Shown here piece by piece: positions 14,910 through 35,585 of a DNA stretch of 45,710 bases. A model generated the notes under the pieces. That model was not told where the DNA came from and did no database searches. It saw only the letters and a list, made by a program, of their open reading frames with translations. Numbering within the stretch: position 1 is the first letter of the stretch; each line of letters starts with the position of its first letter. The position numbers and the translations under genes are program-made. Source of the stretch: Acidobacteriota bacterium (GTDB lineage: Bacteria > Acidobacteriota > Thermoanaerobaculia > Multivoradales > J023); contig RFGL01000157.1 in assembly GCA_003697015.1 (NCBI GenBank), positions 1 through 45,710 of the forward strand, read 5' to 3'.

Positions 14910-14918
14910 GAAGGCCCG

Positions 14919-15704: not shown

Positions 15705-15713
15705 GGTGCGGCG

Positions 15714-15719
15714 ATCATA
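15714..15719 (-). promoter_or_regulatory. Putative -10 box (TATGAT) of fabI, leaderless spacing
   Basis: TATGAT on the minus strand, then 9 nt, then ATG 15704, with no Shine-Dalgarno. Confidence 0.45.
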
Positions 15720-15736
15720 CTCCACCCGCCGCGCCT

Positions 15737-15745
15737 TGCTACAAT
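15737..15745 (+). promoter_or_regulatory. Extended -10 (TGCTACAAT) upstream of the Ser/Thr kinase
   Basis: A TGn-extended -10 about 57 nt before the GTG at 15803, in the divergent gap with fabI. Confidence 0.4.
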
Positions 15746-15802
15746 CGCCCGTCGTCCACCACCCGGCGCCCGCTCACCCGGGAGCCCGTCGAGACCGAGC
15801 AC

Positions 15803-17599: not shown

Positions 17600-17612
17600 G
17601 CAGCGCGGCGGC

Positions 17613-19529: not shown

Positions 19530-20536
19530 CGCGGTCTCCTCAGCGCCAGACGCTGCTCGAGCAGCTGCTGCACCGTGCGCAGCACGGCCTGGGTGCGGCG
19601 GTGGAATTCGCTGGCGGTGAGGCGATCCGCCGGCGCGGTCAGGCTGATCATGCCGGTACCGTTCGGCTGGTTGCTGAGCTTGATCCGCAGCTCGCCCCAG
19701 ATCAGGGCCCAGCCGTCGGTCGCCTCGATCGTCGGGTCGAAGGGGACGTGCTGGCGGCGCAGGGCCTCGGTGACGGCGTCGAGGAGCACGCCGTCGCGAC
19801 GGTCGTAAGGCACGCTGAAGGCGGCGGCGACGTGGTGGGAGCCGGCAGGAAGGCGGTAGAAGTCGGTGTTCATCAGCCGGCGGAAGCCGTCGTGGTGGAA
19901 GAAGTTGAAGCGCCGGTCGCGGCGCACCCGCAGGCGCAGGCGCTCGTCGAGCTCGAAGGCGCGGGCGAGGATCTGCACCGTGCGGTCGATCATGCCCTCG
20001 AGGGCGTAGTTGCCGGCGACCTGGAAGTAGGCTTCGGCGTCTTCGGCGTGGCGGCTGAGGTAGCGCGCCAGATGCTGGTCGGCCTCGTCCACCCGGCCCA
20101 TCAACAGCAGCACCGCCCCCAGGTTGAGATCGTTGTCGTCGGCCTCGGGGTCGAGCTCGAAGGCGCGCAGCAGGGCCTCGTGGGCGGCGTCGTAGCGCTC
20201 GAGGGACATCTCCACCGCCGCCAGGTTGAGCCAGCCCTGGCGCAGGCTGGGATCGAGCTCCAGGGCACGGTGCAGGTCGGCGGTGGCGGCCTCGTGCTGG
20301 CCGAGCATGAAGCGCGCCGTGCTGCGCAGCAGGAGCGCCCGGCCGCTGGCGGCGCGGCGGAGGCCCTCCTCGACCAGCTCGAGGGCGCGCTCGGGCTGCG
20401 GCGGATCCGCTTCGAGCAACGCCTGGGCCTGGTCGAGCTGCGCTTCGCCGGCGGCGTCTGCCGGCGCCGGGCTCAGCAGGAGGGCGGCGCTCACTAGGGT
20501 GGCGAGAAGGACGGAGGGTCGGCGTGCGTCGTTCAT
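19526..20536 (-). CDS. Secreted/periplasmic tetratricopeptide repeat protein
   Basis: 336 aa with a cleavable signal peptide (VLLATLVSAALLLSPAPADAAG) and then TPR helices over about residues 30-200: ALELVEEGLRRA, EAATADLHRALELDPS, AAHEALLRAFELDPEADDND and VDEADQHLARYLSRH. The C-terminal third (HHDGFRRLMNTDFYRL to the end) is not TPR and I do not recognise it. Translationally coupled to the downstream CRTAC1 gene by a 4-bp overlap, which suggests the two products act together. A TATACT box stands 9 nt before the ATG without a Shine-Dalgarno. Confidence 0.85.
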   Translation of the reverse strand: MNDARRPSVLLATLVSAALLLSPAPADAAGEAQLDQAQALLEADPPQPERALELVEEGLRRAASGRALLLRSTARFMLGQHEAATADLHRALELDPSLRQGWLNLAAVEMSLERYDAAHEALLRAFELDPEADDNDLNLGAVLLLMGRVDEADQHLARYLSRHAEDAEAYFQVAGNYALEGMIDRTVQILARAFELDERLRLRVRRDRRFNFFHHDGFRRLMNTDFYRLPAGSHHVAAAFSVPYDRRDGVLLDAVTEALRRQHVPFDPTIEATDGWALIWGELRIKLSNQPNGTGMISLTAPADRLTASEFHRRTQAVLRTVQQLLEQRLALRRPR

Positions 20537-20545
20537 CGAGGGACG

Positions 20546-20551
20546 AGTATA
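20546..20551 (-). promoter_or_regulatory. Putative -10 box (TATACT) of the TPR-CRTAC1 operon, leaderless spacing
   Basis: TATACT on the minus strand, 9 nt before ATG 20536. It shares a 73-bp gap with the divergent ClpX-like gene. Confidence 0.45.
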
Positions 20552-20594
20552 CGTGTCCCGGCGGCCGACGAGCACCCGCCGTCGCGCCGGCGGA

Positions 20595-20600
20595 TACAAT
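20595..20600 (+). promoter_or_regulatory. Putative -10 box (TACAAT) of the ClpX-like gene, leaderless spacing
   Basis: TACAAT, then 9 nt, then GTG 20610, with no Shine-Dalgarno. Confidence 0.45.
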
Positions 20601-20609
20601 CGGGCCGTC

Positions 20610-21716
20610 GTGAGCAAGAAGACCGCCACCCCGACCCCGAAGGAGATCGCCGCCGAGCTCGAGCGGCGGGTGGTGGGCCAGAGCGAGGCGATCGCCGAGA
20701 CCTCGATCGCCCTGGCCAAGAAGCTCGCCCGCCTGCCGGTCGGCAACGTCCTGATGATCGGCTCCTCCGGCACCGGCAAGACCACCCTGATGCGCGCCGT
20801 CGAGGAGTATCTCGCCGCTCACGACGAGCTCGCCTTGAGGCCGGTGGTGGCGCGCATGCACGCCAACGTCCTCGGCGAGGAGGCGGAGCGCGGCCGCCCC
20901 GGCCAGGCGGTGCTCGGCCGGTTGTTGGCGCGGGCGCGGGAGCAGCTCGGCCCCCAGACCCCGATCGCCGAGCTCCTCGCCGAGGCGCGCCACGGCATCG
21001 CCTTTGTCGACGAGGTCGACAAGATCCGCAGTCACGTCGGCGGGGTGGTCAACACCGCCGGCATCCGCGCCCAGGAAGCGCTGCTGACGGTGATGGAGAA
21101 CGAGGCGGTGCCGTTCACCCTCCCCGCCTGGGCCGGCGGTGAGACCGTCAGCGTCGACTCGAGCGGCCTCCTCTTCGTCTGCGCCGGCGCCTTCGAGGGC
21201 CTCTACGACGCGGTCTTCGACCGGGTGACGATCGGCCGCGACAAGGGGGCGCTCAAACCGGTGACGGTGGTCGAAGAGGGCTCGGTGCAGGAGCGGCTGG
21301 AGTTCCGCCTCGGCGACTGGCTGCGCAACGAGGACCTCTTCGACTACGGCCTGAGCCCGCAATTCATCGCCCGCTTCGACGCCGTGGTGCTGCTCCAGGA
21401 CCTCGACGTCGACGCCCTGGTGCGCATCTTCCTCGAAGCCCCCGACTCGGGCTTTCACCAGGCCCGTGCCTACTTCGAGAACCGCGGCCTCTCCCTGCGT
21501 CTCTCCCCCGCCGCCGTGCGCCGCATCGCCCACCACGCCGCCCGCGCGCCACGCCTCGGCGCCCGGGCGCTGAAGGAGGTCTTCCGGCGGGTGATCCGAC
21601 CCTACGAGCTGGAGCCCGAGCTGCACGCCGGCGACGGCGGCGTCATCCTTCTCGACGAGGCCGAGGTGGAGGCGGCACTAGCGCCGGCGCAAGGCCGCCA
21701 GCAGGCGGCGCGGTAG
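20610..21716 (+). CDS. ClpX/HslU-like AAA+ ATPase lacking the N-terminal zinc finger
   Basis: 368 aa. The Walker A motif is GSSGTGKT (51-58), and Walker B IAFVDEVDK (130-138). LLFVCAGAFEGLYD, DYGLSPQFIARFDAVV and RLGARALKEVFRRVI (sensor 2 region) follow the ClpX pattern closely. Differences from ClpX: no four-Cys zinc-binding domain at the N-terminus, about 50 residues shorter, and the pore-1 loop GYVG is replaced by HANVLGEE around 85-91, so the gripping aromatic is missing. No IGF-type ClpP-docking loop is obvious and no clpP or hslV is nearby. It may be a remodelling factor or a specialised unfoldase rather than a protease subunit. GTG start. The 3' end overlaps mpl antisense by 39 bp. Confidence 0.8.
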   Translation: MSKKTATPTPKEIAAELERRVVGQSEAIAETSIALAKKLARLPVGNVLMIGSSGTGKTTLMRAVEEYLAAHDELALRPVVARMHANVLGEEAERGRPGQAVLGRLLARAREQLGPQTPIAELLAEARHGIAFVDEVDKIRSHVGGVVNTAGIRAQEALLTVMENEAVPFTLPAWAGGETVSVDSSGLLFVCAGAFEGLYDAVFDRVTIGRDKGALKPVTVVEEGSVQERLEFRLGDWLRNEDLFDYGLSPQFIARFDAVVLLQDLDVDALVRIFLEAPDSGFHQARAYFENRGLSLRLSPAAVRRIAHHAARAPRLGARALKEVFRRVIRPYELEPELHAGDGGVILLDEAEVEAALAPAQGRQQAAR

Positions 21717-23078
21717 GTCGTCGAAGCTGCCCGACGACATGGTGACGGCGACGTCGCCCGGCCGCAGCCAGGCGAGGGCGGCGTCGAGCACGGCGCCGGT
21801 GCTCGGGCAGCAGGCGGCGTCGACGCCGTCGCGCCCGAGCTCCTCGACCAGGGCCTCGAGGTCGAGACGCTCGTCGTCGGCCAGGCGACGGCGGTGGAAG
21901 ATCGGCGCCAGGCGTACGGCGGTGGCGGCGGCGAAGGCGCGGCGGTAGGCCGGCTGGAGGAAGGCGCGGCCGGCGGTCAGGCTGCGGGGCTCGAAGAGGG
22001 CGAGCAGGCGGCGGCCCGGGTACCGCGCGGCGAGGGCGCGCAGGGAAGCGCCGACCGCCGTCGGGTGATGGGCGAAGTCGTCGACGACGGTGACGCCGGC
22101 GGCCGTCCCCAGCACCTCGAGCCGCCGCTTGACGCCGGCGAAGCCGGCGAGAGCAGCGGCGACGGCGGCCGGCGCGAGGCCGTCGTGGCGCGCCGCCGCC
22201 CACGCCGCCAGGGCGTTCTGCACGTTGTGGTCGCCGGCCAGCTGGAGCTCCACCGCGACGCTGCCGCCGGCGCCGTCGGGGAGGACGAAACGGCTGCCGC
22301 GCGGGCCGTGCTCGAGGCTCGCGGGGCGCACGTCGTTGCCCTCCTCCAGGCCGTAGAAGATCACCTTGCTCCTGGCGCCGGCGGCCATCGCGCGCACCGC
22401 CGGATGGTCGCCGCAGGCCACCACCACCCCGTCTTCAGGCACCAGGGCGATCAGCCGCCGGTAGGCCTCGTCGAGGGCTTCGGGGGAGGGATAGAGGTCG
22501 GCGTGGTCGTACTCGACGCTGGTCAGGATCAAGGCCTGGGGGCGGTAGTGGAGAAACTTCGGCCCGCGGTCGAAGTAGGCGGCGTTGTACTCGTCGCCCT
22601 CGACGACGAAGCGCGGCCCGCTGCCGACGGCGAAGCTGCGTTCGAGTCCCTGCGGCACGCCGCCGATCAGGTAGCCCGGATCCTCGCCGCAGTTGGCGTA
22701 GACCCAGCTGGCCAGGGCGGTGGTGGTGGTCTTGCCGTGGGTGCCGGCGACCACCAGCGGCCGCCGGCCCTCGAGCAGAAAGCGGCTCAGGGCCTGGGGC
22801 ATCGACGCCCGTTCGAGGCCGAGCTCCTCCGCCCGCTCTACCTCGGGATTGGAGCGCGGCACGGCGTTGCCGACGATCACCAGGTCGGGGGCTGGCTCGA
22901 GGTGGGCCGGATCGTAGCCCCGGTGCGGCGTGATGCCGGCCTCGGCCAGCAGGGTGCTCATCGGCGGGTAGAGCGGAGCGTCGCTGCCCCGCACCCGATG
23001 CCCGAGCTCCTGCAGCAGACAGGCGAGGGGGGCCATGCCGGTGCCGCCGATGGCGATCATGTAGACGTCGAGGGACAA
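21678..23078 (-). CDS. mpl: UDP-N-acetylmuramate:L-alanyl-gamma-D-glutamyl-meso-diaminopimelate ligase
   Basis: A 466-aa Mur-ligase-family enzyme of peptidoglycan recycling that re-attaches recovered tripeptide to UDP-MurNAc. Seen: an N-terminal nucleotide-binding IGGTGMAPLA, the ATP loop GTHGKTTTT, VVEGDEYNAAYFD (typical of Mpl rather than MurC), LAGDHNVQNALAA and DDFAHHPTAV. Its presence implies meso-DAP peptidoglycan. The start used is TTG 23078; ATG 23060 is a good alternative because the fold starts at VYMIAIGG. The stop lies inside the last codons of the convergent ClpX-like gene. Confidence 0.9.
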   Translation of the reverse strand: MSLDVYMIAIGGTGMAPLACLLQELGHRVRGSDAPLYPPMSTLLAEAGITPHRGYDPAHLEPAPDLVIVGNAVPRSNPEVERAEELGLERASMPQALSRFLLEGRRPLVVAGTHGKTTTTALASWVYANCGEDPGYLIGGVPQGLERSFAVGSGPRFVVEGDEYNAAYFDRGPKFLHYRPQALILTSVEYDHADLYPSPEALDEAYRRLIALVPEDGVVVACGDHPAVRAMAAGARSKVIFYGLEEGNDVRPASLEHGPRGSRFVLPDGAGGSVAVELQLAGDHNVQNALAAWAAARHDGLAPAAVAAALAGFAGVKRRLEVLGTAAGVTVVDDFAHHPTAVGASLRALAARYPGRRLLALFEPRSLTAGRAFLQPAYRRAFAAATAVRLAPIFHRRRLADDERLDLEALVEELGRDGVDAACCPSTGAVLDAALAWLRPGDVAVTMSSGSFDDLPRRLLAALRRR

Positions 23079-23258
23079 GGCTTCGAGGAGGGCGTGTGGG
23101 GGGTTTTACGCTGTTTTTACCCGCGGGGTGATCGCGGTCGGTTCTGCCGTAGTAGCATGAATTCTCTCACGCGGCGGCCGCCGTCTCCACACGGTCCCGC
23201 CGGCGGCCATCCAACCCGCGCCGCGTATTGTAGATCAGCGAGTAGAGGAGTCAGACTC

Positions 23259-24284
23259 ATGTTGCTGCCAAAGACCCGTGGGATCCCCACGATCAGCGCA
23301 CTCGTCCTCAGCGCCCTGGTGCTCGGCGCCGTCCCGGCCAGCGCCAAGCCGCAGGCGGTGGTGGTCGAGCCGGTGAAAGACTTCGAGGTGGTGGCCAAGG
23401 GCGAGCACCTGAAGCACGCCTTCGAGATCCGCAACGAAGGCGACGAGGTGCTCGAGATCACCGAGGTCCGGCCGTCCTGCGGCTGCACCGTCGCCAAGTT
23501 CGACCAGAAGATCGCGCCGGGCAAGAGCGGCTTCGTCATCGCCGACGTCGACACCGCCAGCCTCGACGGGGTGATCGCCAAGTCGGTCGCGGTGTTCACC
23601 AACGACGCGGACAACGCCAAACTGCAGTTGACGGTGAAGGCCGACGTGCGGCCCTACATCGCCGTCGATCCGGGCTACGCCCGCTTCAGCTACGTCCAGG
23701 GCGAGCCCACCGGCACCATCAGCGAGACCATCTACGCGCCGGACGGCAGCGACATCGAGATCCTCGAGGTCAAGGTGCCCTACGACCACATCCGCGTCAG
23801 CCACCGGGTGGCGGGCGAGGAGGAGCGCGACGCCCGCGGCAGCGGCAAGCAGTGGAAGGTCGACATCGAGATCCTGCCCGACGCGCCGGTCGGCCCGCTG
23901 CGCGACCACGTCGAGGTGATCGTCGATCATCCGAAGCAGAAGAAGGTGCTGATCCCGATCTCCGGTTTCGTCCGCCCGCGGCAGCACGTCACCCCGCAGG
24001 AGATCGATTTCGGCCAGGTCAAGTCCTCCGACCTGCCGCTGGTCAAGGGCTTCACCCTGACCAGCTTCACCACCAAGGGCATCGATCCGCCGGAGGTCGA
24101 GAGCTCGATCAAGGGGCTGGACATCCAGGTGCGCAAGACCGGCACCACCGGCCACCGCTACCAGGTCATCCTGCAGATGACCCGCGACATGCCCAAGGGC
24201 GAATTCGCCGACGTCCTGCGCATCCGCACCAGCGACGAGAAGAGCCCGGTGATCGAGGTGCCTCTGCGCGGCGTGGTTCTCTGA
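23259..24284 (+). CDS. Secreted DUF1573 domain protein
   Basis: 341 aa with a signal peptide (ISALVLSALVLGAVPASA, residues about 12-29). A DUF1573 domain at about 35-130 has the hallmark RPSCGCTVAKF (C74, C76) and Ig-like strands. A second half repeats the same beta-sandwich style (TPQEIDFGQV...). DUF1573 proteins are exported beta-sandwich (ASH/MSP-like) proteins of unknown function, common in Bacteroidetes and Acidobacteriota. The ATG follows a GAGGAG ribosome-binding site. The 180-bp gap before it is divergent with mpl and shows no other gene. A strong terminator follows, so this is probably a single-gene unit. Confidence 0.88.
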   Translation: MLLPKTRGIPTISALVLSALVLGAVPASAKPQAVVVEPVKDFEVVAKGEHLKHAFEIRNEGDEVLEITEVRPSCGCTVAKFDQKIAPGKSGFVIADVDTASLDGVIAKSVAVFTNDADNAKLQLTVKADVRPYIAVDPGYARFSYVQGEPTGTISETIYAPDGSDIEILEVKVPYDHIRVSHRVAGEEERDARGSGKQWKVDIEILPDAPVGPLRDHVEVIVDHPKQKKVLIPISGFVRPRQHVTPQEIDFGQVKSSDLPLVKGFTLTSFTTKGIDPPEVESSIKGLDIQVRKTGTTGHRYQVILQMTRDMPKGEFADVLRIRTSDEKSPVIEVPLRGVVL

Positions 24285-24318
24285 GCGCAACCGCATCCAC
24301 ACTCTCTCCTCACCTTAC

Positions 24319-24352
24319 GCGGCGCCTCCGATCGGGGCGCCGCATTTCTTTT
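24319..24352 (+). terminator. Rho-independent terminator after the DUF1573 gene
   Basis: A perfect 8-bp GCGGCGCC/GGCGCCGC stem with a 9-nt loop is followed by ATTTCTTTT, about 35 bp after the stop codon. This is the clearest intrinsic terminator in the window. Confidence 0.85.
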
Positions 24353-24410
24353 CCCCCCAGGTCGTCGTACCGGAGAACGATCGGACGGCGATCGCCGGCA
24401 CGAGTCCACT

Positions 24411-25652
24411 TCATCCGTTGACGGCGTCGTCGAGGGCGGCGATGGCGTCGCGCAGCTGGCGGTCGCTCAGGTAGGGGGCCGGCCCCAGGCGCAGGCGGTG
24501 GCCGCGGCAGTCGGTCAGCACGCCGCGCCGGCGCAGCTCGGCGCAGAGCTCCGCTGCCTGCGGCGACTCCAGGACCAGGAAGCCGCCGAGCTCGTCGATC
24601 GGCACGGCGGGACGGCGCAGGCGCGCCGGGTCGAGATCGAGCCGGTCGAAGGCGTGGGCCAGGAGCCCCACCTGATGCTGGCTGACGCGGCGCAGGAAGG
24701 GGACCTCGAGCCCCATGCGGTCGAAGAAGTCGAAGACCGCGGCAGCGCGGTAATGGCTGGTCGGATCGTAGGTGGCGCCGGCGAAGCGGGCGGCACCGCG
24801 GCCGTAGGCCACCCGCTGCGGATGGGCCGGGTCGGCGAGAGCGTCGAATTCGGCGTACCAGCCGGTGATCACCGGCCGCAGGGTGCAATCCGGCGGCGTT
24901 CGCAGGAAGGCGTTGCCTTCCCCCAACTGGCAGTACTTGTAGCCCCCGCCGACGGCGTAGGCGCCGTCGAGGCCCTCGCCGGGCAGGGAGTAGGGCACCA
25001 CGTTGGAAGCGTGGTAGAGGTCGACCAGGAGCTCCGCCCCGTGGCGCTGCGCCGCCGCCAGCACCCGCCCCAGGCCGGGGACGATGCGGCCGCTGTGAAA
25101 GAGCACCGCCGACGCCAGCACCGCCGCCGTGCGATCGTCGACCGCGGCGATCAGCCGCTCGGCGATGGCGTGGGGATCGGCCGACGGCACCCGTACCACC
25201 TCGATCCCCTCCTCCTCCAGCCGCGCCAGCTGGCGGCGGATGGAGTGAAACTCGCCGTCGGTGGTCAAAAGCCGCGGCCGCTGGCGCAGGGGCAGGGCGG
25301 AGAGAAAGCGCGCGACCAGCTCGTGGGTATTCGAGGCCAGGACGTAGCTGCCGGCGCCGTCGTCGTGCAGGCGGGCGAAGCCGCGGCCGACCCTCGCCGC
25401 CTGCTCGAAGGCGACCGGCCACTTGTCGTCCACCAGGCGGGCCGCGTCGTCGAATGCACGCAGCTGGCCGGCGTGCGCCGCATCGGGCCACGCCTGGTGG
25501 GAGTGGCCGGTGAGAAGCAGCCGCTGCGCCACCCGAAAGCGCCGGTAGTGCTCCGCCAGGGCGTTGGGATGGCGGCGCAGGGCGGCCAGCTCCGGCGGCC
25601 CGGCGCCGGAGCCGGAGCCGCTGGCGTTCGTCCGCCTCGAGTGCTCGCTCAC
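24411..25652 (-). CDS. kynU: Kynureninase-like PLP-dependent enzyme (aminotransferase class V fold)
   Basis: A 413-aa fold-type I enzyme expected to cleave kynurenine to anthranilate and alanine. The PLP lysine is K239 in VGGGYKYCQLGEGN. Upstream, ELLVDLYHASNVVPYS carries the PLP-contacting Asp, and PVITGWYAEF plus ARFAGATYDPTSHYRA are typical of the kynureninase/PvdN branch. It lies 23 bp downstream of kynA, the strongest reason for the kynureninase call, since the sequence is distant from E. coli-type or human kynureninase. GTG start at 25652, right after the kynA stop. The symbol follows context as much as sequence. Confidence 0.75.
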   Translation of the reverse strand: MSEHSRRTNASGSGSGAGPPELAALRRHPNALAEHYRRFRVAQRLLLTGHSHQAWPDAAHAGQLRAFDDAARLVDDKWPVAFEQAARVGRGFARLHDDGAGSYVLASNTHELVARFLSALPLRQRPRLLTTDGEFHSIRRQLARLEEEGIEVVRVPSADPHAIAERLIAAVDDRTAAVLASAVLFHSGRIVPGLGRVLAAAQRHGAELLVDLYHASNVVPYSLPGEGLDGAYAVGGGYKYCQLGEGNAFLRTPPDCTLRPVITGWYAEFDALADPAHPQRVAYGRGAARFAGATYDPTSHYRAAAVFDFFDRMGLEVPFLRRVSQHQVGLLAHAFDRLDLDPARLRRPAVPIDELGGFLVLESPQAAELCAELRRRGVLTDCRGHRLRLGPAPYLSDRQLRDAIAALDDAVNG

Positions 25653-25675
25653 CGCTGGCTCCGGAAGACGGCGAG

Positions 25676-26473
25676 CTAGAGCTCCGTGCGGATCGCCCAG
25701 AGATCGGGAAAGAAGGGCTTGAAGAGGGTCTGGCGCAGATAGTCGGCGCCCGGCGAGCCGCCGGTACCGGGCTTGCTGCCGATGGTGCGCTCGACCATCT
25801 TGACGTGGCGGTAGCGCCATTCCTGAAGGCCCTCGTCGAGGTCGACCAGGCGCTCGCAGACCTGGGTCAGGCGGTCGTCGTGGCGGTAGACGTCGAGCAG
25901 CACGGCACGGATCTCCGGCGCCTCGATCGGCGCTGCATCGCGGCGCGGCTCCAGGTGCTCCTCGGCGACGGCATAACCGCGGCGGATCAGATAGCGCAGG
26001 AAGGCCTGGTAGACCGTCGCCTGCGCCAGCCGCTCTTCGAGGCGGGCGCAGGCGGCGGGGTTCTCGCGGTGATGGGCGAGCAGCGCCGGCCGCTTCATGC
26101 CGAGCAGGAACTCGAGCTCGCGGAACTGCGACGACTGGAAGCCGCTCGCCGCCTCCAGGCGGGCGCGGAAGGAGCTGAACGACGTCGGGGTCATGGTCTC
26201 CAGGATGTCGACCTGGGCGACCAGGGTCTTGAGGATCGTCAGCACCCGTTTCAAGGTGTGGAGGATGCGCGGCAGGGTGCCGTCGGCCGGGGCGTCGCTG
26301 GCGAAGAGCCGCGCCAGGTAGTCGAGCTCGTGGAGGATCTGCTTGAACCACAACTCGTAGACCTGGTGGATGACGATGAACAAGGTCTCGTCGTGCTCCG
26401 GTCCCGCCGAGCGCGGGCGTTGCAGCGCCAGCAATTCGTCGAGGGCCAGGTAACGCGAATAGGTCAGGGACAT
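25676..26473 (-). CDS. kynA: Tryptophan 2,3-dioxygenase
   Basis: A 265-aa haem enzyme that opens the indole ring of L-tryptophan to N-formylkynurenine. The N-terminal MSLTYSRYLALDELL and FIVIHQVYELWFKQILHEL (active-site His and substrate pocket) and the proximal haem ligand H223 in WRYRHVKMVERTIGSKPGT are clear. Length is normal for bacterial TDO. It sits between rph and the kynureninase-like gene with 23-bp gaps on both sides, so the three are probably cotranscribed. No formylkynurenine formamidase is found in the window; it would have to be elsewhere. Confidence 0.95.
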   Translation of the reverse strand: MSLTYSRYLALDELLALQRPRSAGPEHDETLFIVIHQVYELWFKQILHELDYLARLFASDAPADGTLPRILHTLKRVLTILKTLVAQVDILETMTPTSFSSFRARLEAASGFQSSQFRELEFLLGMKRPALLAHHRENPAACARLEERLAQATVYQAFLRYLIRRGYAVAEEHLEPRRDAAPIEAPEIRAVLLDVYRHDDRLTQVCERLVDLDEGLQEWRYRHVKMVERTIGSKPGTGGSPGADYLRQTLFKPFFPDLWAIRTEL

Positions 26474-26496
26474 GGCGATTCGGCGCCGGCTCGTCT

Positions 26497-27321
26497 TCAG
26501 CCCGGCGGTCCCCACAGGGAGCCTTCGTCCTTGGGTGGCACCGGCCGCCGGCCGCGGGCGCGCAACGCCTCGACCTCCGCCAGGGTACGCTCCAGGGCCT
26601 GGTTCTGCGCCGCCACCAGCTCCTCGATGCCCTTCGCCGCCAGGTCGAGCAGGGCGTCGAGCTCGCTGCGCCGGAAGCTCCGGCCCTCGCCGGTGCCCTG
26701 CACCTCGACCAGCTCGCCGCGGGCGGTGGCGACCACGTTCAGGTCGACGTCGGCGGCGACGTCCTCGACGTACTCCAGGTCGAGCAGGGGCTGGTCGTCG
26801 ACGATGCCCACCGACACCGCCGCGACCTGCCGCGTCAGCGGCCATTCGGCGAGATCGCCGGCCAGGTAGGCGCCGGCCAGGGCCTCGACCAGCGCCACCC
26901 ACGCGGCGGTGATCGACGCCGTGCGGGTGCCGCCGTCGGCCTGCAGCACGTCGCAGTCGAGGGTGACGGTGCGCTCGCCGAGGAGCGTGCGGTCGACCGC
27001 CAGGCGCAGGCTGCGCCCGATCAGGCGCTGGATCTCGGCGGTGCGCCCGCCGGGCCGGCCGCGGGTCACCTCGCGCGGCGAGCGGCGGAGGGTGGCGCGG
27101 GGCAGCATGGCGTATTCGGCGGTCACCCAACCTTCGCCGCTGTCGGCGAGGAAGGGGGGCACCCGATTCTCGATCGAGGCCGCGGCGATCACCCGCGTGT
27201 CGCCGACGTCGATCTGCGCCGAGCCGTCGGCGAACTTGAGCACCCCGGTGGCGATGGTGACCGGCCGCAGGGCATCCGCCGCGCGACCGTGGGGGCGGGG
27301 CTTGGGGGCGGCGTCGGTCAT
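26497..27321 (-). CDS. rph: Ribonuclease PH
   Basis: A 274-aa phosphorolytic 3'-5' exoribonuclease that trims tRNA 3' ends. Seen: [59 protein letters not shown] (phosphate-binding Arg) and [21 protein letters not shown]. The start is ATG 27321, not the GTG three codons upstream, because a TAAGGT box ends 7 nt before that ATG and partly overlaps the GTG codon. The C-terminus is about 25 residues longer than in E. coli and ends in a charged coil. Leads the rph-kynA-kynU operon. Confidence 0.95.
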
Positions 27322-27328
27322 CGACCGC

Positions 27329-27334
27329 ACCTTA
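27329..27334 (-). promoter_or_regulatory. Putative -10 box (TAAGGT) of rph, leaderless spacing
   Basis: TAAGGT, then 7 nt, then ATG 27321; it decides the rph start. A weaker match to the -10 consensus than the others. Confidence 0.3.
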
Positions 27335-27376
27335 GCAGATCCCCGCCCCGTCCCGGTCGCCGCGTGGCCGGGCCCA

Positions 27377-29113
27377 TTACCTGCGCCCGGGGCCGTCCAC
27401 CGCCCCCGCCTCGAGCGGGGGGAGCTCGCGGCGCAGGCGCTCGAGATCCCAGACGTAGATGCCGCGTTGGGCGTCGGCCAGGTCGGGCGGGCCCCACAGC
27501 CGGCGCAGGCGGCGGGCGAAGTCGCGGGCGGTGCGGCTGCTGGAGGCCAGGGCCCGCTGCCGCTGCCGCCGGTCGCGCCGGCTCGCCACCCGACCCTGGC
27601 TTCGCTCGAGGGCGATCTCCTCCTCCTCGAGCCGGGTGTGGACGACGACGAAGGCCGCCCGGCTGCGGCGCATGGCAGCCGGCTGCGGCGCGACCATGTT
27701 GCGAAAGGCGAGGCGGTCGCTGGCCAGGGCGTGACTCAAGGGCGAGACGATGACCGCCCTCCCGTGGCCCTGCTGGTAGTGGGGAAAGACGCGGCCGTAG
27801 CGCCAGCTGGTCGGCCAAGGATATTCGATGATCGGCGCCGGCCGATGGCGGAGGAGCATGCCGTAGACCGGCGGCATGGGGCCGCCCGCGGGGATCGGCC
27901 GGTGGAAGGCGAAGACGTCGTTGCGGTGCATGAAGGAGCCGGAGTAGAAGCGCTCGCCGAGCAGGGGGCCGCGCCAGACGAGGAAGGGCAGAACCACCAG
28001 CGGCGCCAGCCGCGCCACCGCCAGTCGGCCGCCCCCCGTACTCCGCCGCCAGGGTGCGGTCAGGCCGCAGGCCACGGCGAGCAGCACCGGCGGCAGGATG
28101 ACGATCAGGTAGCGGCTGCAGATCACCGGATCCGCCATCCCCGTCGGCCGCAGCAGCAGCAGGCCGGCGATCTGGCCGCCGATCAGGGTCAGGGCGTAGA
28201 CCACCCCTTGGGGGTCGCGGCGGTGGAGGACCACCGCGCCGCGGAGCGCCAAGGCCCAGAAGATCAGGACCGGCAGCAGCTCGGCGGAGCCGCCGTGCAG
28301 CTTGAGGACGCCGGCCGCCGTCGCCCACGACGGCGTCGCGGTCGCGGCCTTGGCGGCGATCAGGGCGGCGAGGCTGGCCCGAGCGGGGATCAGGAACGCG
28401 GCGAGACCGGCGCCGATCGCGCCCAGGAGCAGCGCCCCGCGCCACCGATCGCGACCGCTCTCCGCCGGCGGCTCGACGGCGAATAACCACCGGTAGAGCG
28501 CTGCCCGCCGCGCCGCCAGCGGCCCGCCGCGGGCGGCGAGCAGCCGGCGGCCGGCGAGGAAGGCGAAGGGGGCGAGGACGAAGGGCACGGCGAGCAGGTG
28601 GACGTAGACCGCCGCCGCGCCGCACAGGGCGTAGAGCGCCCCGTGGCGCCAGCGGCCGCTCTCCACGAAACGATAGAAGAACCAGGCGGCTGCGCTGCTC
28701 AACAGGGTAAGCGGCATGTAGGAGCGGATGATCCGACTGTAGAGCACCAGCACCGGCGACGTCGCCACGAGCCAGGCGAAGACCGCGGCGGCCGGCGTAC
28801 CGGCGCGGCGGGCGGCGGCCAGGGGCGCGGCGATCAAGAGGGCGATGCCGCTGGCCAGGACCGGCGACCGCAGGTGCATCTCGTGCAGCTCGACGCCGGC
28901 CTCGAGCAGCAGGCGGTAGAAGGCGGTCAACGGCAGGCAGTGATCGGCCGGCAGGTAGGTGATCAGGATCGATCCGAGGGGCAGCCGCAGCGCGGCGCGC
29001 ACGCTGTGCAGCTCGTCCCCGCCGGCGACCTGGCCGGGCAGCAGATAGAGCCGCAGGGCAGTGCCCGCCACCACCGCCGGCAACAGCCACAGCCCGATGC
29101 GGCGCCGGCTCAC
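27377..29113 (-). CDS. Multi-pass membrane protein, GT-C (PMT/GT39-like) glycosyltransferase candidate
   Basis: 578 aa with roughly ten to twelve membrane helices in the first 400 residues and a soluble C-terminal domain. After the first helix it has [10 protein letters not shown], the acidic DE pair in the first periplasmic loop that marks GT-C transferases using lipid-linked sugars. [12 protein letters not shown] and [14 protein letters not shown] also fit that fold. The tail is rich in Arg with an [13 protein letters not shown] coiled stretch. The GTG at 29113 overlaps the stop of the preceding sulfatase-family gene by 4 bp (GTGA), so it belongs to that operon and may modify the same envelope polymer. 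The sugar and acceptor are unknown. Confidence 0.7.
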
Positions 29114-31314
29114 TTCACGTAACCCATCGCCAGCAGCTTGTCCCGCTGAAGACGCGCCAGCCGCGGCAGCTGCTGGCGGGCGGGACCGCCGATCGCCAGC
29201 CGGCGCTCGAGCGCGGCGTAGCCCAGCCCCTCGTCGCCGGAGCAGGATTCCGTGCGCCAGCCGCCGTCCGCCAGCCGCTGGCAGTAGGCGCCTTCGGGCC
29301 ACAGCACCCGGCGGTGCCCGCGGCCTTCGACCGACAGCAGCCCCGAGGCGATCCTCATGTGCTCGATCAGCCCGTGCAACGGAGGCAGCTCATGCTCCTC
29401 GCTGTAGACCGCGCGGCGCTTCGACCGCGCGAGGACGCCGGCGTCGAGCACCAGGGCATCCCCCGCCGGCGCCGGCAGACCGGCGGCGGACAGGAAGGTG
29501 GGAAAGACGTCGATCGCCGACGCCGGATGATCGAGGCGCTGGGGCCGGCGCTGGCCGGGGCGCTTGAGCAGCATCGGGATGCGCACCAGCTCGGGATCGA
29601 GCCGGCAGCCGTGATTGAAGTATCCGCCCTCCCCCAGCAGCTCGCCGTGGTCGGCGAGCACCGCGATCAGCGCCCGGTCGAAGATGCCGCGCCGCTCGAG
29701 GGCGGCGAAGAGGCGGCCGATCTGCTCGTCCATGAAGGCGACTTCGGCGCGGTAGGCCGCGACCAGCAAGGCCCGGGTCGCGGCGTCGGGGGCGAGGCGG
29801 CCTTCGGCCAGCTCGAACCAAGCTCCGCCGTCGCCGTCGAGAAGCCGCGCCAGGACGCTGCCGGCGGGGGCGGAGCGGCGGGCGGCGGCGAGGGCCGGGC
29901 CGTCGAAGCGCCGCGGCGCCCGCCACGGAAAGTGGGGATCGAAGTAGTTGAGGAAGAGAAAGAAGGGATCGTCGCCGTGCCGGTCGAGAAAGGCGAGGGC
30001 GGCGTCGGTGAGCGCGTCGGCCTGAAGCTCGGCGACCGGCGACTCGTCGTAGACGGCGAATCCCCGGCCGAGGCCGAAGAGGTAGGAGGTGAAGGGGCCG
30101 CCGGCGAAGCCGGCGGTGACGTAGCCGCGCCCAGCCAGGCGCTGCGCCAGAGCGGCGGGCTCCGGGCCGAGGCCGTAGGTGAAGACCCCGGCGCCGTGCT
30201 GCGACGGATAGCGGCCGGTGAACATGGAGACGTGGGCCGGCAGGGTCCACGGGGCGGTGGTGCTGGCGGCGTCGAAGGCGGTGGCGACGTCGCTGAAGGC
30301 GGCCAGGTGAGGCGTCGATCCAGGATCGTCGCTCCACGGCGGCACCGCGTCGCGGCGGGTGGTGTCGAGGCTGATCAGGATCAGCGGCGGACGGCGCTCC
30401 CTCGGCGACTCGAAGCGGCCGGCGCGCCAGTGGAAGATGCCCTCGGGCAGGCCTGCGGCGGCGAGCTCGAGCTGCGGCGAGCGGTCCCGGTCGACCGCCA
30501 GCTCGAGCCGTACCTCCGCCCCGGGATCGACCGCCGTCTCCAGCCGCTGGTCGCCCGACGCCAGGGCGATGGTAGCCGGGGCGAAGGAAGCGTTGAGCAC
30601 CTCGGCGACGAAGCGCTCCGCCGCCGCCGGCACCTCCACCGCCACGCGCTGCGATCCGAGCATCAGAAAACCGCCGAAGCGCGGCGGCGGGGCCGGGCCC
30701 GCCACCCCCAGGGCGATGAAGTCGGCGAGGTAGGAGTAGTACGACCGGCCGCTGGGACGAAAGGCTTCGCGGAAGGTGCCGACGTGGAGGGCGAGCTCGC
30801 TGAAGAGCGGCTGCTCGCCGGCCGCCGGCAGCAGGTCGAGCACGTGCGTGCCCGGGGTGAGAGAAGCCCGCGGCAGGCGCGCCACGATCAGCCGCTCGTC
30901 GCCCGCGTCGCGCCCCGGCGGCGGCAGCCGCTGGCCGTCGAAAAAGAGCTCGAGCTCGGGTTCCGCCTGCCCTTCGGCCAGGGTCAAGGAGACGGCGACG
31001 TCGGCCGCCGGGACGACGCGGGTGACGAAGGCGAATCCGGCCGGGCCGTCGAGCTGCCAGCGCCCGCCGTCCACCCGCCATCGATGGTCGGGCACGCCCA
31101 GGCCGGAGCGCGACGCCAGCACCTGGCCTTGCAGGTCGGCCAGCTGCGGCAGCGTCGGCCTCGCCCGCGGGCTGCAGGCGAGCAGCGCCGCCAGCACCGC
31201 CACCCATGCCGCCCGCCGGAGGGCGCTGCCGGCAGCGCCGCGAAGGCGGCGACGGCGGTCGTGCTCTCGCTCGCGCACCGTCGAATCGTAGCAGGAGGGC
31301 CGCGCCGAGCTCAT
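29110..31314 (-). CDS. Sulfatase-superfamily lipoprotein (Thr nucleophile) with N-terminal beta-sandwich region
   Basis: 734 aa. A hydrophobic segment ends in the lipobox LLAC (C47), so it is probably an anchored periplasmic lipoprotein. Residues 50-300 form a beta-rich region; 308-600 form the alkaline-phosphatase-superfamily core with ILISLDTTRRD (metal D317), ADHGELLGEGGYFNHG and FFLFLNYFDPHFPW. The catalytic position, ten residues before TG in APWTLPAHVSMFTG, is T357 where true sulfatases have formylglycine Cys, and the usual Arg is His. It may thus be a phosphodiesterase or phosphotransferase. The ATG overlaps the upstream gene's stop (ATGA). A GTG at 31278, six bases after a TACGAT box, is an alternative start giving a normal-length signal. 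Confidence 0.85.
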   Translation of the reverse strand: MSSARPSCYDSTVREREHDRRRRLRGAAGSALRRAAWVAVLAALLACSPRARPTLPQLADLQGQVLASRSGLGVPDHRWRVDGGRWQLDGPAGFAFVTRVVPAADVAVSLTLAEGQAEPELELFFDGQRLPPPGRDAGDERLIVARLPRASLTPGTHVLDLLPAAGEQPLFSELALHVGTFREAFRPSGRSYYSYLADFIALGVAGPAPPPRFGGFLMLGSQRVAVEVPAAAERFVAEVLNASFAPATIALASGDQRLETAVDPGAEVRLELAVDRDRSPQLELAAAGLPEGIFHWRAGRFESPRERRPPLILISLDTTRRDAVPPWSDDPGSTPHLAAFSDVATAFDAASTTAPWTLPAHVSMFTGRYPSQHGAGVFTYGLGPEPAALAQRLAGRGYVTAGFAGGPFTSYLFGLGRGFAVYDESPVAELQADALTDAALAFLDRHGDDPFFLFLNYFDPHFPWRAPRRFDGPALAAARRSAPAGSVLARLLDGDGGAWFELAEGRLAPDAATRALLVAAYRAEVAFMDEQIGRLFAALERRGIFDRALIAVLADHGELLGEGGYFNHGCRLDPELVRIPMLLKRPGQRRPQRLDHPASAIDVFPTFLSAAGLPAPAGDALVLDAGVLARSKRRAVYSEEHELPPLHGLIEHMRIASGLLSVEGRGHRRVLWPEGAYCQRLADGGWRTESCSGDEGLGYAALERRLAIGGPARQQLPRLARLQRDKLLAMGYVK

Positions 31315-33248
31315 CCGTCGTCGAGGTAGCCGAGGGCGCGCAGGCGCTCCCGTTCCACCGCCTCGAGGTCCCGCCGGCTGGGCGGGGGCTCGACGCGATC
31401 GGCCAGCCAGCCGTCGAGCAGCCGGTCGAAGGCGGCGGCCAGGCGCGGCCGCCGCGTCGCCAGGTTGTGCTCCTGGGCCGGGTCGCGCCGCAGATCGTAG
31501 AGATAGCCGCCGGCGGCCAGGTGGGGATGACCGTCGATCCGCATGTAGAGGTAGCGCCGGTCGCGGACCATGGTGCCGTAGCCGTTCATGTGCTCGGCCC
31601 AGATCCGCCGCCGGCCGGCGGACGGATCGGCGCTCCAGGCCCCCAGGTCGCGACCGTCGGACGGCGGCGGCGTCAGCCCGGCGGCGGCGAGGACGGTGGG
31701 GAAGACGTCGACGGACTGGGCGAAGCCGCTCAGGCGCCGGCCGGGGCGCGGCGGACCGGGCCAGCGGATCAGCAACGGCACCCGGGTGGTGGCGTCCCAC
31801 AGGCCGCCGTGGCGGAAGTGGAAACCGTGCTCGAGCAGATTCTCGCCATGGTCGGAGCTCACCACCAGGAGCGTGCGGCGCAGGGCTCCGGCGGCGCGCA
31901 GGTAACCCAGCAGGCGGTCCACCTGGCGATCGAGGTAGGCGACCTCGGCGGCGTAGAGCGCCTCGTGGGCGCCGAGGAGCGGCTTGCGGTAAGCGATCGG
32001 CCCCGGATCGCCGACCTGCAGCCACGAGCCGACCGGCCGCAGGCCCCAGGTGCCGTCCGCCACCCGGCCCTGAGCGAAGGGACGGGGCGGGGTGTGGGGG
32101 GTGTGAGGATCGAAGACGTGGAGCCAGAGAAAGTAGGGCCGGCGCTGATCGGCCAGCCACTCGAGGGCGAGGTCGGTGGCGAGCTCGGCGCTGTACATGC
32201 GCGGCGCGACGTGGAAGGCGTCGAAGCCCTGGTCGAGGCCCGATTTGCGCGGCCGCAGATGGTTGACGGCGACCACCGCGCCGGTGGCGTAGCCCTGCCG
32301 GCGCAAGAGCTCGGCCAGGGTCCGGTGGCGTCCGGGCAGGGGGGTGTGCAGATCGTAGACCCCGTGATGTTTGCCGTAGAGGCCGGTCATCAACGAGGCG
32401 AGACTGGGATTGGTGCCGTTGAAGCAGGCGAAGGCGTCGAGCCACACGTCGCTTTCCGACGCCAGGGCGTCGAGGGCCGGGGTCAGGCTCGGCGAGCGGC
32501 CGTAGACCCCGAGGGCGTCCGCCCGCAGGGCGTCGAAGGTCAGGAGGATGACGTCGGGATGCTCGGGGGGCGGGCGTCGCCGTTGCCCGGCCGCGGGCGG
32601 GCGGCGGACGTAGACCGCCGGGCTGCCCCAGAGGGAGAGGCCGTGCCGCCGCCGGCACCTCGCGCCCGGCGTCGCCGCAGCGAGCTCCAGCTCGACGCCG
32701 CCCGCGGCCAGCGACGTCAGATCGACGCTGGCCGTCGCCGGCGCCTCCCAGCGGCCGGGCTCCGGCCGCCGTTCCCCCAGCAGCCGCCACCGGCCGTCAG
32801 CGGGCCGCCCTCGTACCCGGTAGACCGTCGGGCAGGCGGCAGTGCCCGGCAGCAGAGGCCGGAAGGAGAGAAACGACTCCGCGCCGGCGGTGAGGCGGAA
32901 GCGGATGCTCCGCCCCGGCGGGATGCGCAGGGCGCGCACCGTGCCGGGGAGCATGCGCGAGCGCTGCCGCACCGTGCCGCCGCGGGTCGCCGCGGCCAGG
33001 GGCACGGCGACCCGCAGCTCCTCGTCTTCGACCGCGTCGCTGCCGCTGGCAAGGGGCTGCTGCCAGAGATCGATCCGCATCCAAGGCGACGTCTCGGTGC
33101 CGCGGCAATTCAGCAACGCCAGCCACAGCGCTCCCCACCCCACCGCCCGGAGCGCCGGCCGCCGGAGCGCCGGCCGCCGGAGCGCCGGCCGTCCGCGGTC
33201 GGGCGGGAGATGGTAAGGTGGCAACCCGCGCTTGCCGGCGTGGAGCAC
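31311..33248 (-). CDS. Sulfatase-superfamily lipoprotein (Thr nucleophile), second copy
   Basis: 645 aa from GTG 33248. The N-terminus contains a threefold repeat (RPALR) and then a hydrophobic stretch with lipobox ALLNC (C48). Residues about 60-225 are beta-rich; the catalytic core follows: VILLTFDALRADALG (metal D239), FLWLHVFDPHTPHT, VVSSDHGENLLEHGFHF and a C-terminal ALGYLDDG typical of this group. The residue at the catalytic position before TG in GTNPSLASLMTG is T279, not Cys, and Leu replaces the activating Arg. First gene of the three-gene operon that ends with the GT-C protein. The start is uncertain; GTG 33248 lies 7 nt after a TAGAAT box. Confidence 0.82.
   Translation of the reverse strand: MLHAGKRGLPPYHLPPDRGRPALRRPALRRPALRAVGWGALWLALLNCRGTETSPWMRIDLWQQPLASGSDAVEDEELRVAVPLAAATRGGTVRQRSRMLPGTVRALRIPPGRSIRFRLTAGAESFLSFRPLLPGTAACPTVYRVRGRPADGRWRLLGERRPEPGRWEAPATASVDLTSLAAGGVELELAAATPGARCRRRHGLSLWGSPAVYVRRPPAAGQRRRPPPEHPDVILLTFDALRADALGVYGRSPSLTPALDALASESDVWLDAFACFNGTNPSLASLMTGLYGKHHGVYDLHTPLPGRHRTLAELLRRQGYATGAVVAVNHLRPRKSGLDQGFDAFHVAPRMYSAELATDLALEWLADQRRPYFLWLHVFDPHTPHTPPRPFAQGRVADGTWGLRPVGSWLQVGDPGPIAYRKPLLGAHEALYAAEVAYLDRQVDRLLGYLRAAGALRRTLLVVSSDHGENLLEHGFHFRHGGLWDATTRVPLLIRWPGPPRPGRRLSGFAQSVDVFPTVLAAAGLTPPPSDGRDLGAWSADPSAGRRRIWAEHMNGYGTMVRDRRYLYMRIDGHPHLAAGGYLYDLRRDPAQEHNLATRRPRLAAAFDRLLDGWLADRVEPPPSRRDLEAVERERLRALGYLDDG
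33148..33192. repeat. Three tandem 15-bp units in the sulfatase-2 signal region
   Basis: The unit CGGAGCGCCGGCCGC occurs three times (33148, 33163, 33178), with only the last base of the third unit different. On the minus strand it encodes repeated R-P-A-L-R in the n-region of the signal peptide. The unit length is a multiple of three, so copy changes keep the frame. Confidence 0.9.
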
Positions 33249-33254
33249 GCCCGC

Positions 33255-33261
33255 TATTCTA
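33255..33261. promoter_or_regulatory. Overlapping divergent -10 boxes between the two sulfatase transcription units
   Basis: TATTCT on the plus strand (33255-33260) and TAGAAT on the minus strand (33261-33256) share five bases. The minus box ends 7 nt before GTG 33248; the plus box ends 29 nt before GTG 33290. Polymerase could occupy only one direction at a time. Confidence 0.4.
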
Positions 33262-33289
33262 GCAACGTCCCTGACGCCATCGCCGCCCC

Positions 33290-34672
33290 GTGTTCGCCGT
33301 TCGACCGCCATTCGCCGTCCCCGCCCTGCGCCCATGGCGCCGACTCGCCTTGGCCGCCGTGGCCTTGCTGCTGGCGAGCGGCTGCGACGGCCGGCAGCCG
33401 GTGACGTGCCGGGGCTGCAACGTCGTGCTGCTGCTGGTCGACACCCTGCGTGCCGACCACCTGTCGAGCTACGGCTACGACCGCCAGACCACCCCCTTTC
33501 TCGACGCCTTCGCCCGCTCCAACGTCCTCTTCCTCAACGCCCGCAGCCAGTCGGCCTGCACCTTCCCGTCGGTCAACTCGCTGCTCACCTCGCGTCACAT
33601 CTTCGACTTCCTCGATCCATCGACGCGACCCGGGATCCCCGACGACGTCCCCTACCTGCCCGCCCTCCTGCGCCGGCACGGCTATGCCACCGCCGCCGTC
33701 TCGGCCAGCCCGATCGTGCGCAACACGCCCTCCGAGCACAATCTGAAAGGCGGCTTCGGCCGCGGCTTCGACCACTTCGACGAATCCTGCAAGTGGCTCT
33801 ACGGCAACTGCGTCAACCGGGTGGCCGGACAGCTGCTCGAGGGCATGGGGGAGCCGTTCTTTCTCTACCTCCACTACATGGAGCCCCACGATCCGTACCG
33901 GGCGGAAGCGAGCGTCTTCGGCCGCTTCGTCGAAGGCTACGAGGGCCGTTACCCGTCCGTCGCCAAGGGCGACCCGAATCCGCTCCGCCAGATGCTGGAC
34001 GACGGCCGGGAGATCGATCCGTCGGACCTGGAGTACCTGATCTCGCGCTACGACGAGGAGATCCTGGGGGTGGACGCCCACCTCGGCGCCTTCCTCCAGC
34101 AATTGGAGGAGCGCGGCGTGGCGGAGCGGACCATCGTCATCGTCGCCTCGGACCACGGCGAGGCGTTTCTCGAGCACGATCTGCTCAAGCACTGCCGGGG
34201 GCTCTACGAGCCCCTCACCCGGGTGCCGCTGATGATGCGCATCCCCGCCATCGACGGCCCGCTGGTGCGCCGCACCTGGGTGGAGAACCTCGACCTGGTG
34301 CCGACGGTGCTCGATTACCTCGGCCTGCCGGCTGAGGACTTCGCCGGCGTCAGCCTGCGGCCGCTGATCGAGACCGGCACCCCGCCCGGCAAGGTGGCGC
34401 GCAGCTCGATGGGCAGCTGGCGCAGCGTCAACGACGATCGCTTCAAGCTCCTCTGGCGGTTGAATACCCGCGACTACCTGCTCTTCGACCTGGTGGCGGA
34501 TCCGGCGGAGAGCCGCAACCTCCTGCGCCAGGAGCGCGCCGCTCTGCGCCACCTGCGCCGCGAGCTCGAGCGTTGGATGGCACAGACCGAGGCCGGCGTG
34601 CCGGAGAGCGAACGCGCCCGCCAGGCCGAGGAGATCGAAGACGAGCTCCGCGCCCTCGGCTACCTCAACTGA
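33290..34672 (+). CDS. Sulfatase-superfamily lipoprotein (Thr nucleophile), compact divergent copy
   Basis: 460 aa, GTG start. The signal LALAAVALLLASGC ends in a lipobox Cys (C32). Immediately after comes the catalytic core: VVLLLVDTLRADHLSSYGYD (metal D51), CTFPSVNSLLTS, FFLYLHYMEPHDPY, VIVASDHGEAFLEHDL and a C-terminal LRALGYLN. T91 is at the nucleophile position. A neighbouring Cys (C90) precedes it by one residue and so is out of register with the sulfatase motif, and the Arg is Val. Unlike the two divergent copies it lacks the N-terminal beta-sandwich region. Substrate unknown; the shared control region suggests it acts with them. Confidence 0.85.
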   Translation: MFAVRPPFAVPALRPWRRLALAAVALLLASGCDGRQPVTCRGCNVVLLLVDTLRADHLSSYGYDRQTTPFLDAFARSNVLFLNARSQSACTFPSVNSLLTSRHIFDFLDPSTRPGIPDDVPYLPALLRRHGYATAAVSASPIVRNTPSEHNLKGGFGRGFDHFDESCKWLYGNCVNRVAGQLLEGMGEPFFLYLHYMEPHDPYRAEASVFGRFVEGYEGRYPSVAKGDPNPLRQMLDDGREIDPSDLEYLISRYDEEILGVDAHLGAFLQQLEERGVAERTIVIVASDHGEAFLEHDLLKHCRGLYEPLTRVPLMMRIPAIDGPLVRRTWVENLDLVPTVLDYLGLPAEDFAGVSLRPLIETGTPPGKVARSSMGSWRSVNDDRFKLLWRLNTRDYLLFDLVADPAESRNLLRQERAALRHLRRELERWMAQTEAGVPESERARQAEEIEDELRALGYLN

Positions 34673-34832: not shown

Positions 34833-35585
34833 ATGAAAAACCATCGCATCTGGCTGGCCGCGATTCTCGCCGCCGCGCTGACGATGCCCGCCGCCTGGGC
34901 GATCCAGCTCGACGACAAAGCGATCTTCATCGAGATCAACGACACCGACGGCGACGCCGGCATCCAGCTCTTTCTCGACGGCGAGGGCTGGGAGTTCATG
35001 TCCCTCCGCGACCCGGACGGCAAGCTCATCTTCTCCGTCACCGCCCGCGGCAGCATCGCCATGCAAGGCGTCACCGAGCTCTTCTTCGAGAGCGCCGAGC
35101 CGTCCTTCGACGAGCAACCCCTCGACGAGCTCCTCGCCCTCTTCCCGGAAGGCGAGTACCGCTTCATCGGCCGCACCACCGACAACGTCCCGCTGCGCGG
35201 CAAGGCGCTCCTGACCCACGCCCTGCCCGGCGCGCCGGTCATCGTCCTGCCGGTCGAAGGGGACGAGGACGTCGACCCCGACAACGCGGTCATCCAGTGG
35301 CAGCCGGTGGCCGACCCCCCGGGCAGCAAGATCATCAGCTACGAGGTGGTGGTGGAGAAGGACGAGGGCGCGCTGCGGGTGTTCAAGGCCGATCTCGGCC
35401 CAGCCGCCACCACCGTCACCGTGCCGCCGGAGTTCCTGCAGGACGCCACCCTCTACACGGTCGAAGTCATCGCCAAGGAGAGCAGCGGCAACCAGACGAT
35501 CTCCGAGCGCCCGTTCGCCACCGAAGGGGGCTCGATCCCCGATGACGACGAGGAGGACGCGGCGGACGACGAGGAGGATGGGTGA
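34833..35585 (+). CDS. Secreted protein with a fibronectin type III-like domain
   Basis: 250 aa. A clear signal peptide (IWLAAILAAALTMPAAWA) is followed by a region of about 100 residues I do not recognise (KAIFIEINDTDGDAGIQLFLDGE...FEFF-like pattern). A fibronectin-III-like fold follows at about 130-230: PGAPVIVLPVEG, AVIQWQPVADPPGSKIISYEVVV and ATLYTVEVIAKESSGNQTISE. The C-terminus is a very acidic tail (DDDEEDAADDEEDG) that may bind Ca. A good GGAGG ribosome-binding site precedes the ATG. Ends 21 bp from the convergent murI stop. Probably periplasmic or extracellular; no function can be assigned. Confidence 0.75.
   Translation: MKNHRIWLAAILAAALTMPAAWAIQLDDKAIFIEINDTDGDAGIQLFLDGEGWEFMSLRDPDGKLIFSVTARGSIAMQGVTELFFESAEPSFDEQPLDELLALFPEGEYRFIGRTTDNVPLRGKALLTHALPGAPVIVLPVEGDEDVDPDNAVIQWQPVADPPGSKIISYEVVVEKDEGALRVFKADLGPAATTVTVPPEFLQDATLYTVEVIAKESSGNQTISERPFATEGGSIPDDDEEDAADDEEDG

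Follow-up and report, generated by a model that had tools for sequence, protein, structure and literature searches.

Proteins that match the sulfatase profile PF00884 fall into enzyme groups of quite different chemistry. Formylglycine-dependent sulfatases (SulfAtlas family S1) carry the motif C/S-x-P-x-R, whereas the SulfAtlas authors found threonine at this position in 30 of the 59 Pfam seed sequences and termed the profile incorrect for sulfatases (PMC5066984). Among the Thr-type enzymes, the site residues listed for EptA include E240, T280, H453, and H465 (PMC7576196), and in MCR-1 each of the substitutions E246A, T285A, H395A, H466A, and H478A abolishes activity (PMC12658134). Transfer by EptA and LtaS also requires the membrane domain (PMC7576196), which in EptA/MCR-1 is N-terminal and has five helices. 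Here we compare with these systems three sulfatase-like proteins, SulfA, SulfB, and SulfC, encoded in a 45,710-nucleotide stretch of DNA from an Acidobacteriota bacterium (the window). We think it probable that all three are lipid-anchored, Thr-nucleophile PF00884 enzymes of the envelope and not sulfatases, with SulfB acting most likely on Kdo-lipid A.

The SulfA-SulfB-SulfC locus

The three genes lie beside a gene for a GT-C type membrane protein, arranged as follows.

27377..29113, minus strand: GT-C type membrane protein (PF13231 PMT_2, Pfam E 4.9e-6)
29110..29113, minus strand: GTGA overlap of the SulfA stop codon and the GTG start of the GT-C gene
29110..31314, minus strand: SulfA, 734 aa, lipoprotein-like, PF00884
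30244..30246, minus strand: SulfA Thr357 codon, predicted nucleophile
31311..31314, minus strand: ATGA overlap of the SulfB stop and SulfA start codons, probable translational coupling
31311..33143, minus strand: SulfB, 610 aa from the GTG at 33143, PF00884
32412..32414, minus strand: SulfB Thr244 codon, predicted nucleophile
33290..34672, plus strand: SulfC, 460 aa, lipoprotein-like, PF00884, divergent from SulfB
33560..33562, plus strand: SulfC Thr91 codon, predicted nucleophile
34833..35585, plus strand: fn3-domain protein (PF00041, E 8e-6), downstream of SulfC

SulfA, SulfB, and SulfC each match nearly the whole of PF00884 (Pfam, E 1e-35 to 1e-45). The start of SulfB is unsure; we number from the GTG at 33143, and the first-pass annotation of this DNA had chosen the GTG at 33248, so that our T244 is its T279. 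All three proteins have a lipobox-like N terminus (LAALLAC in SulfA, LALLNC in SulfB, and LLASGC in SulfC), in line with their earlier description as lipoproteins, and a hydropathy scan found no further transmembrane segment in any of them. Because the sulfB, sulfA, and GT-C genes are joined by 4-bp overlaps, they are very probably translated together. The GT-C protein has about nine transmembrane segments predicted from hydropathy and a weak match to TIGR03663/Agl23. On the other strand, the fn3-domain gene runs in the same direction as sulfC, making cotranscription of the two possible.

The spacer between the divergent sulfB and sulfC genes contains, at 33145-33200, about three copies of a short GC-rich tandem repeat, GCGCCGGCCGCCGGA. 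Beyond the 3' end of the GT-C gene, after a short gap and on the same strand, lies rph (RNase PH, 26497-27330), and adjacent open reading frames at 24310-26500 look by eye like genes for kynureninase and tryptophan 2,3-dioxygenase.

Active-site residues and predicted fold

The formylglycine position is occupied by threonine in all three proteins: T357 in SulfA (TLPAHVSMFTG), T244 in SulfB (TNPSLASLMTG), and T91 in SulfC (CTFPSVNSLLTS). The residue at +4 is His, Leu, and Val, respectively, so that the activating Arg is present in none and the C/S-x-P-x-R motif is absent; both substitutions had been recognized in the first-pass annotation, and both hold. The paired metal ligands differ from those of sulfatases as well, with DT, DA, and DT in place of DD and DH in each protein in place of DN. 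The remaining site residues are D317, D459/H461, D555/H556, and H568 in SulfA; D204, H342, D345/H347, D431/H432, and H445 in SulfB; and D51, H195, H200, D288/H289, and H301 in SulfC. What the three proteins share with S1 sulfatases is the fold, the PF00884 match, and the layout of the motifs.

These differences covary with the nucleophile across the family. We read them from a 137-row alignment that included 111 Thr rows and 15 Cys rows, with the misaligned NPP and OpgB rows and the likewise misaligned first half of EptA left out. In the Thr rows, the first Asp is followed by Thr, Ser, or Ala, with no DD among the residues listed; the His of DHG is present in 109 and the downstream His in 80, and Arg is not among the commonest +4 residues. 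The Cys rows, in contrast, have DD in 14, Arg at +4 in 15, and DN in 13 cases. The spacing from Asp to Thr is 40 in all three proteins of the locus, and that between the two histidines is 12 in SulfA and SulfC and 13 in SulfB. The matching columns of Escherichia coli EptA read H, H, D, H, H; SulfC matches both extra histidines, and SulfA has Asn456 at a column where most sequences have His. The metal and histidine set and its spacing (catalytic Thr, acid at −40, DHG, and further His, one of them replaced by Asn456 in SulfA) match EptA/MCR-1 and not sulfatases. We therefore regard as fairly secure, at the level of sequence, the assignment of SulfA, SulfB, and SulfC to a class with Thr-nucleophile phosphotransfer or phosphodiester chemistry. 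The phosphotransferase-type chemistry suggested in the first-pass annotation is supported in that the residues of formylglycine sulfatases are absent and those known from phosphotransferases (PMC12658134) are present.

The threonine is also deeply conserved. In 26 diverse SulfC homologues, T91, D51, D288, H289, and G290 are invariant, and Thr91 is therefore not a chance substitution. Every correctly read SulfC homologue has Thr, including those from Gemmatimonadota, Chloroflexota, Myxococcota, Planctomycetota, Hydrogenedentota, haloarchaea, and others (the mis-framed rows L094, L095, L103, L104, and L105 were left out of this table). We considered the neighboring C90 of SulfC as the nucleophile and rejected it, since this position varies freely among relatives and it is T91 that opens the helix.

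The predicted structures agree with the alignments in placing Thr at the putative metal center. In the SulfC model (mean pLDDT, 85.3), helix 91-100 begins with T91, D51 lies right behind strand 44-50, and D288/H289 lie right behind strand 281-287. The SulfA model, which covers approximately residues 16-657 and leaves out the last 78, repeats this layout in its well-predicted core, where Thr again starts the nucleophile helix. The extra beta-sandwich regions previously described for SulfA and SulfB could not be confirmed; the N-terminal region of the SulfA model is unreliable, with a pLDDT of about 20-45 there. Among solved structures, true sulfatases come closest to SulfC in overall fold (top Z, 39.9), and the Thr-type protein YejM/PbgA matches at a Z of 34.2; EptA and LtaS are absent among the best 50 matches listed, an absence that excludes nothing. 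A sequence-only structure search likewise ranked sulfatases first, as expected if the fold is shared. Since a shared fold hides the type of nucleophile, we read the nucleophile from the alignments. SulfA, SulfB, and SulfC differ from EptA/MCR-1 in being nearer to sulfatases in overall sequence and fold and in having a lipoprotein anchor instead of the N-terminal transmembrane domain.

By analogy with EptA/MCR-1, the Thr hydroxyl would be activated by a metal ion whose ligands are the first Asp, the Thr itself, and the Asp-His pair in DHG, and would attack a phosphodiester to give a phospho-threonine intermediate. Either an acceptor or water would then take up the phospho group, helped by the further histidines.

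The SulfB clade and the Kdo/lipid A operon

In the tree, SulfB falls within a clade of 11 rows (SH-aLRT, 100), with 50 to 53% identity in the catalytic part. Among the 72 genomes of the order, 12 have the clade, this one counted, and it also occurs in a single genome from a second order of the same class. In nine genomes, representing four families and two orders, sulfB directly follows the run pyrG-kdsA-kdsD-kdsC; in most of them, an lpxL-type gene for a lipid A acyltransferase (PF03279) separates kdsC from sulfB. Eight of the nine belong to three families of the order (G010, G012, G018, G020, G021, G025, G027, and G031; 8 of the 12), and the ninth, G072, belongs to the other order. The far side of sulfB is occupied by tatC in most loci; in G027, sulfB overlaps lpxL, and in G026 only the tatC side is kept. 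All catalytic positions are kept in each of the 11 aligned proteins, and several members have clear lipoboxes.

A gene order fixed across families is hard to explain otherwise than by a role of SulfB in Kdo-lipid A, and because its relatives keep the terminal position in the Kdo/lipid A operon, the substrate of SulfB would most likely be lipopolysaccharide (LPS). The envelope role suggested in the first-pass annotation thus gains support from an unexpected side. Our searches of the open-licence literature turned up no account of the SulfB-Kdo linkage; the place of the SulfB relatives in this operon is the new part of our analysis, and it sets the SulfB branch apart from other uncharacterized Thr-type "sulfatases" by a conserved neighborhood of its own. 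It also turns an "unknown" subfamily into one with a directly testable LPS role. Our proposal is that SulfB-type lipoproteins use their Thr as phosphotransferases, or else as phosphodiesterases, on Kdo-lipid A.

In this genome, both SulfB copies (the one in the window and one on contig C420) lie away from the kds and lpx genes. Its kdsB-pyrG-kdsA run extends up to the end of contig C116 (C116:1-1000), and we did not find kdsD in the assembly. The downstream remainder of the operon probably falls in an assembly gap, and a third sulfB copy could conceivably lie within the missing stretch. More tentatively, we suggest that lipoprotein Thr phosphotransferases encoded in the Kdo/lipid A operon and free of a membrane domain modify LPS in this class and that SulfB belongs to this group but has moved to its present place, where it is coupled to another enzyme of the kind and to a GT-C glycosyltransferase. 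If so, this lipid-anchored LPS-modifying enzyme would differ from the membrane-domain-dependent enzymes of the EptA/MCR type.

Alternative readings and the wider family

The absence of a membrane domain can be read in another way. As EptA and LtaS need theirs and none is predicted in SulfA, SulfB, or SulfC, it is possible that these are soluble hydrolases: NPP/PafA-like phosphodiesterases or phosphatases serving nutrient scavenging or lipid turnover, and not transferases. The type I phosphodiesterase profile PF01663 also matches all three, although partially and in patches; SulfA shares T-x-P-x-H and DHG with that family, and an NPP motif from the same genome, TKTFPNHYTIVTG, resembles its TLPAHVSMFTG. 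We nevertheless hold hydrolysis to be the less likely reading, as the EptA-type histidine set is mostly retained and the relatives of SulfB are fixed in a biosynthetic operon. That same LPS context, together with the resemblance of the SulfC model to the Thr-type PF00884 domain of YejM/PbgA, could indicate LPS-sensing regulators with a partly degenerate site, like YejM/LapC. Such a role seems improbable: YejM has lost the DHG His, whereas SulfA, SulfB, and SulfC all keep the Asp, Thr, Asp, and His of an intact catalytic set, and as soluble lipoproteins they are missing the important transmembrane part of YejM. Of the readings considered, we find it hardest to credit that they are true sulfatases with an unusual nucleophile, either Thr derived or unmodified. 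They do resemble sulfatases in overall fold and in their best HMM scores, and proteins of the formylglycine-generating enzyme (FGE) family are encoded in this genome, but the Arg and the second Asp are absent, DH replaces DN, and oxidation of Thr would yield a ketone and not formylglycine (PMC5066984).

The first-pass annotation had proposed that the three enzymes and the GT-C protein form one dedicated, conserved envelope modification system. The overlaps that couple sulfB, sulfA, and the GT-C gene are real, and in G007 and G027, a GT-C relative likewise has Thr-type genes in its vicinity. As one conserved system, however, the cluster is not supported by our survey, and we now regard this proposal as very unlikely. 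Relatives of the GT-C protein, about 34 to 42% identical, occur in 10 of the 79 genomes searched, and among the loci read, Thr-type genes lie close by in G007 and G027 only; at the others, the neighbors are unrelated genes such as mfd or those for penicillin acylase, FTCD, and GGT. In the loci read, SulfB relatives were never found beside the GT-C gene, lying elsewhere with the kds genes, and a search for the whole cluster gave no second case of three such genes plus GT-C. Furthermore, in the tree (a quick build, midpoint rooted, from a biased sample), SulfA, SulfB, and SulfC sit in three separate clades and so did not arise by recent local duplication. The same tree places the Cys sulfatases and two E. 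coli Ser sulfatases in one group of 16 (SH-aLRT, 95) amid a Thr background. The closest approach to the arrangement in the window is in G007 (C62:53000-72000), where a GT-C relative and a gene for a family 2 glycosyltransferase have as neighbors three Thr-type genes and a further one on the opposite strand.

Returning to the reading of SulfA, SulfB, and SulfC as Thr-nucleophile enzymes, we note that they have the same residues as the uncharacterized Thr-type "sulfatases" of planctomycete, myxococcal, gemmatimonadete, and haloarchaeal genomes, of which they are members. PF00884 has 31 matches in this genome, and Thr is present in 22 of the 23 complete domains, with Cys in the remaining one (on contig C342). 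With Thr the rule here and frequent in the Pfam seeds, three successive Thr-type "sulfatases" are to be expected. Such proteins are common, and their generality is already known; the earlier remark that a sulfatase annotation hides them is true but likewise already in the literature (PMC5066984). In these bacteria, the sulfatase profile picks up tens of such genes in each genome, almost none of which can encode a formylglycine sulfatase.

Ten matches to the FGE family (PF03781) stand against the single Cys-type sulfatase (C342:25877-26791) in this genome, and most of its FGE-family genes probably do something other than sulfatase activation. Elsewhere in the genome, contig C438 carries a tandem pair of Thr-type PF00884 genes, and contig C290 carries four in tandem at 14000-27500, with long open frames and the motif TLPSH or TLPAH.
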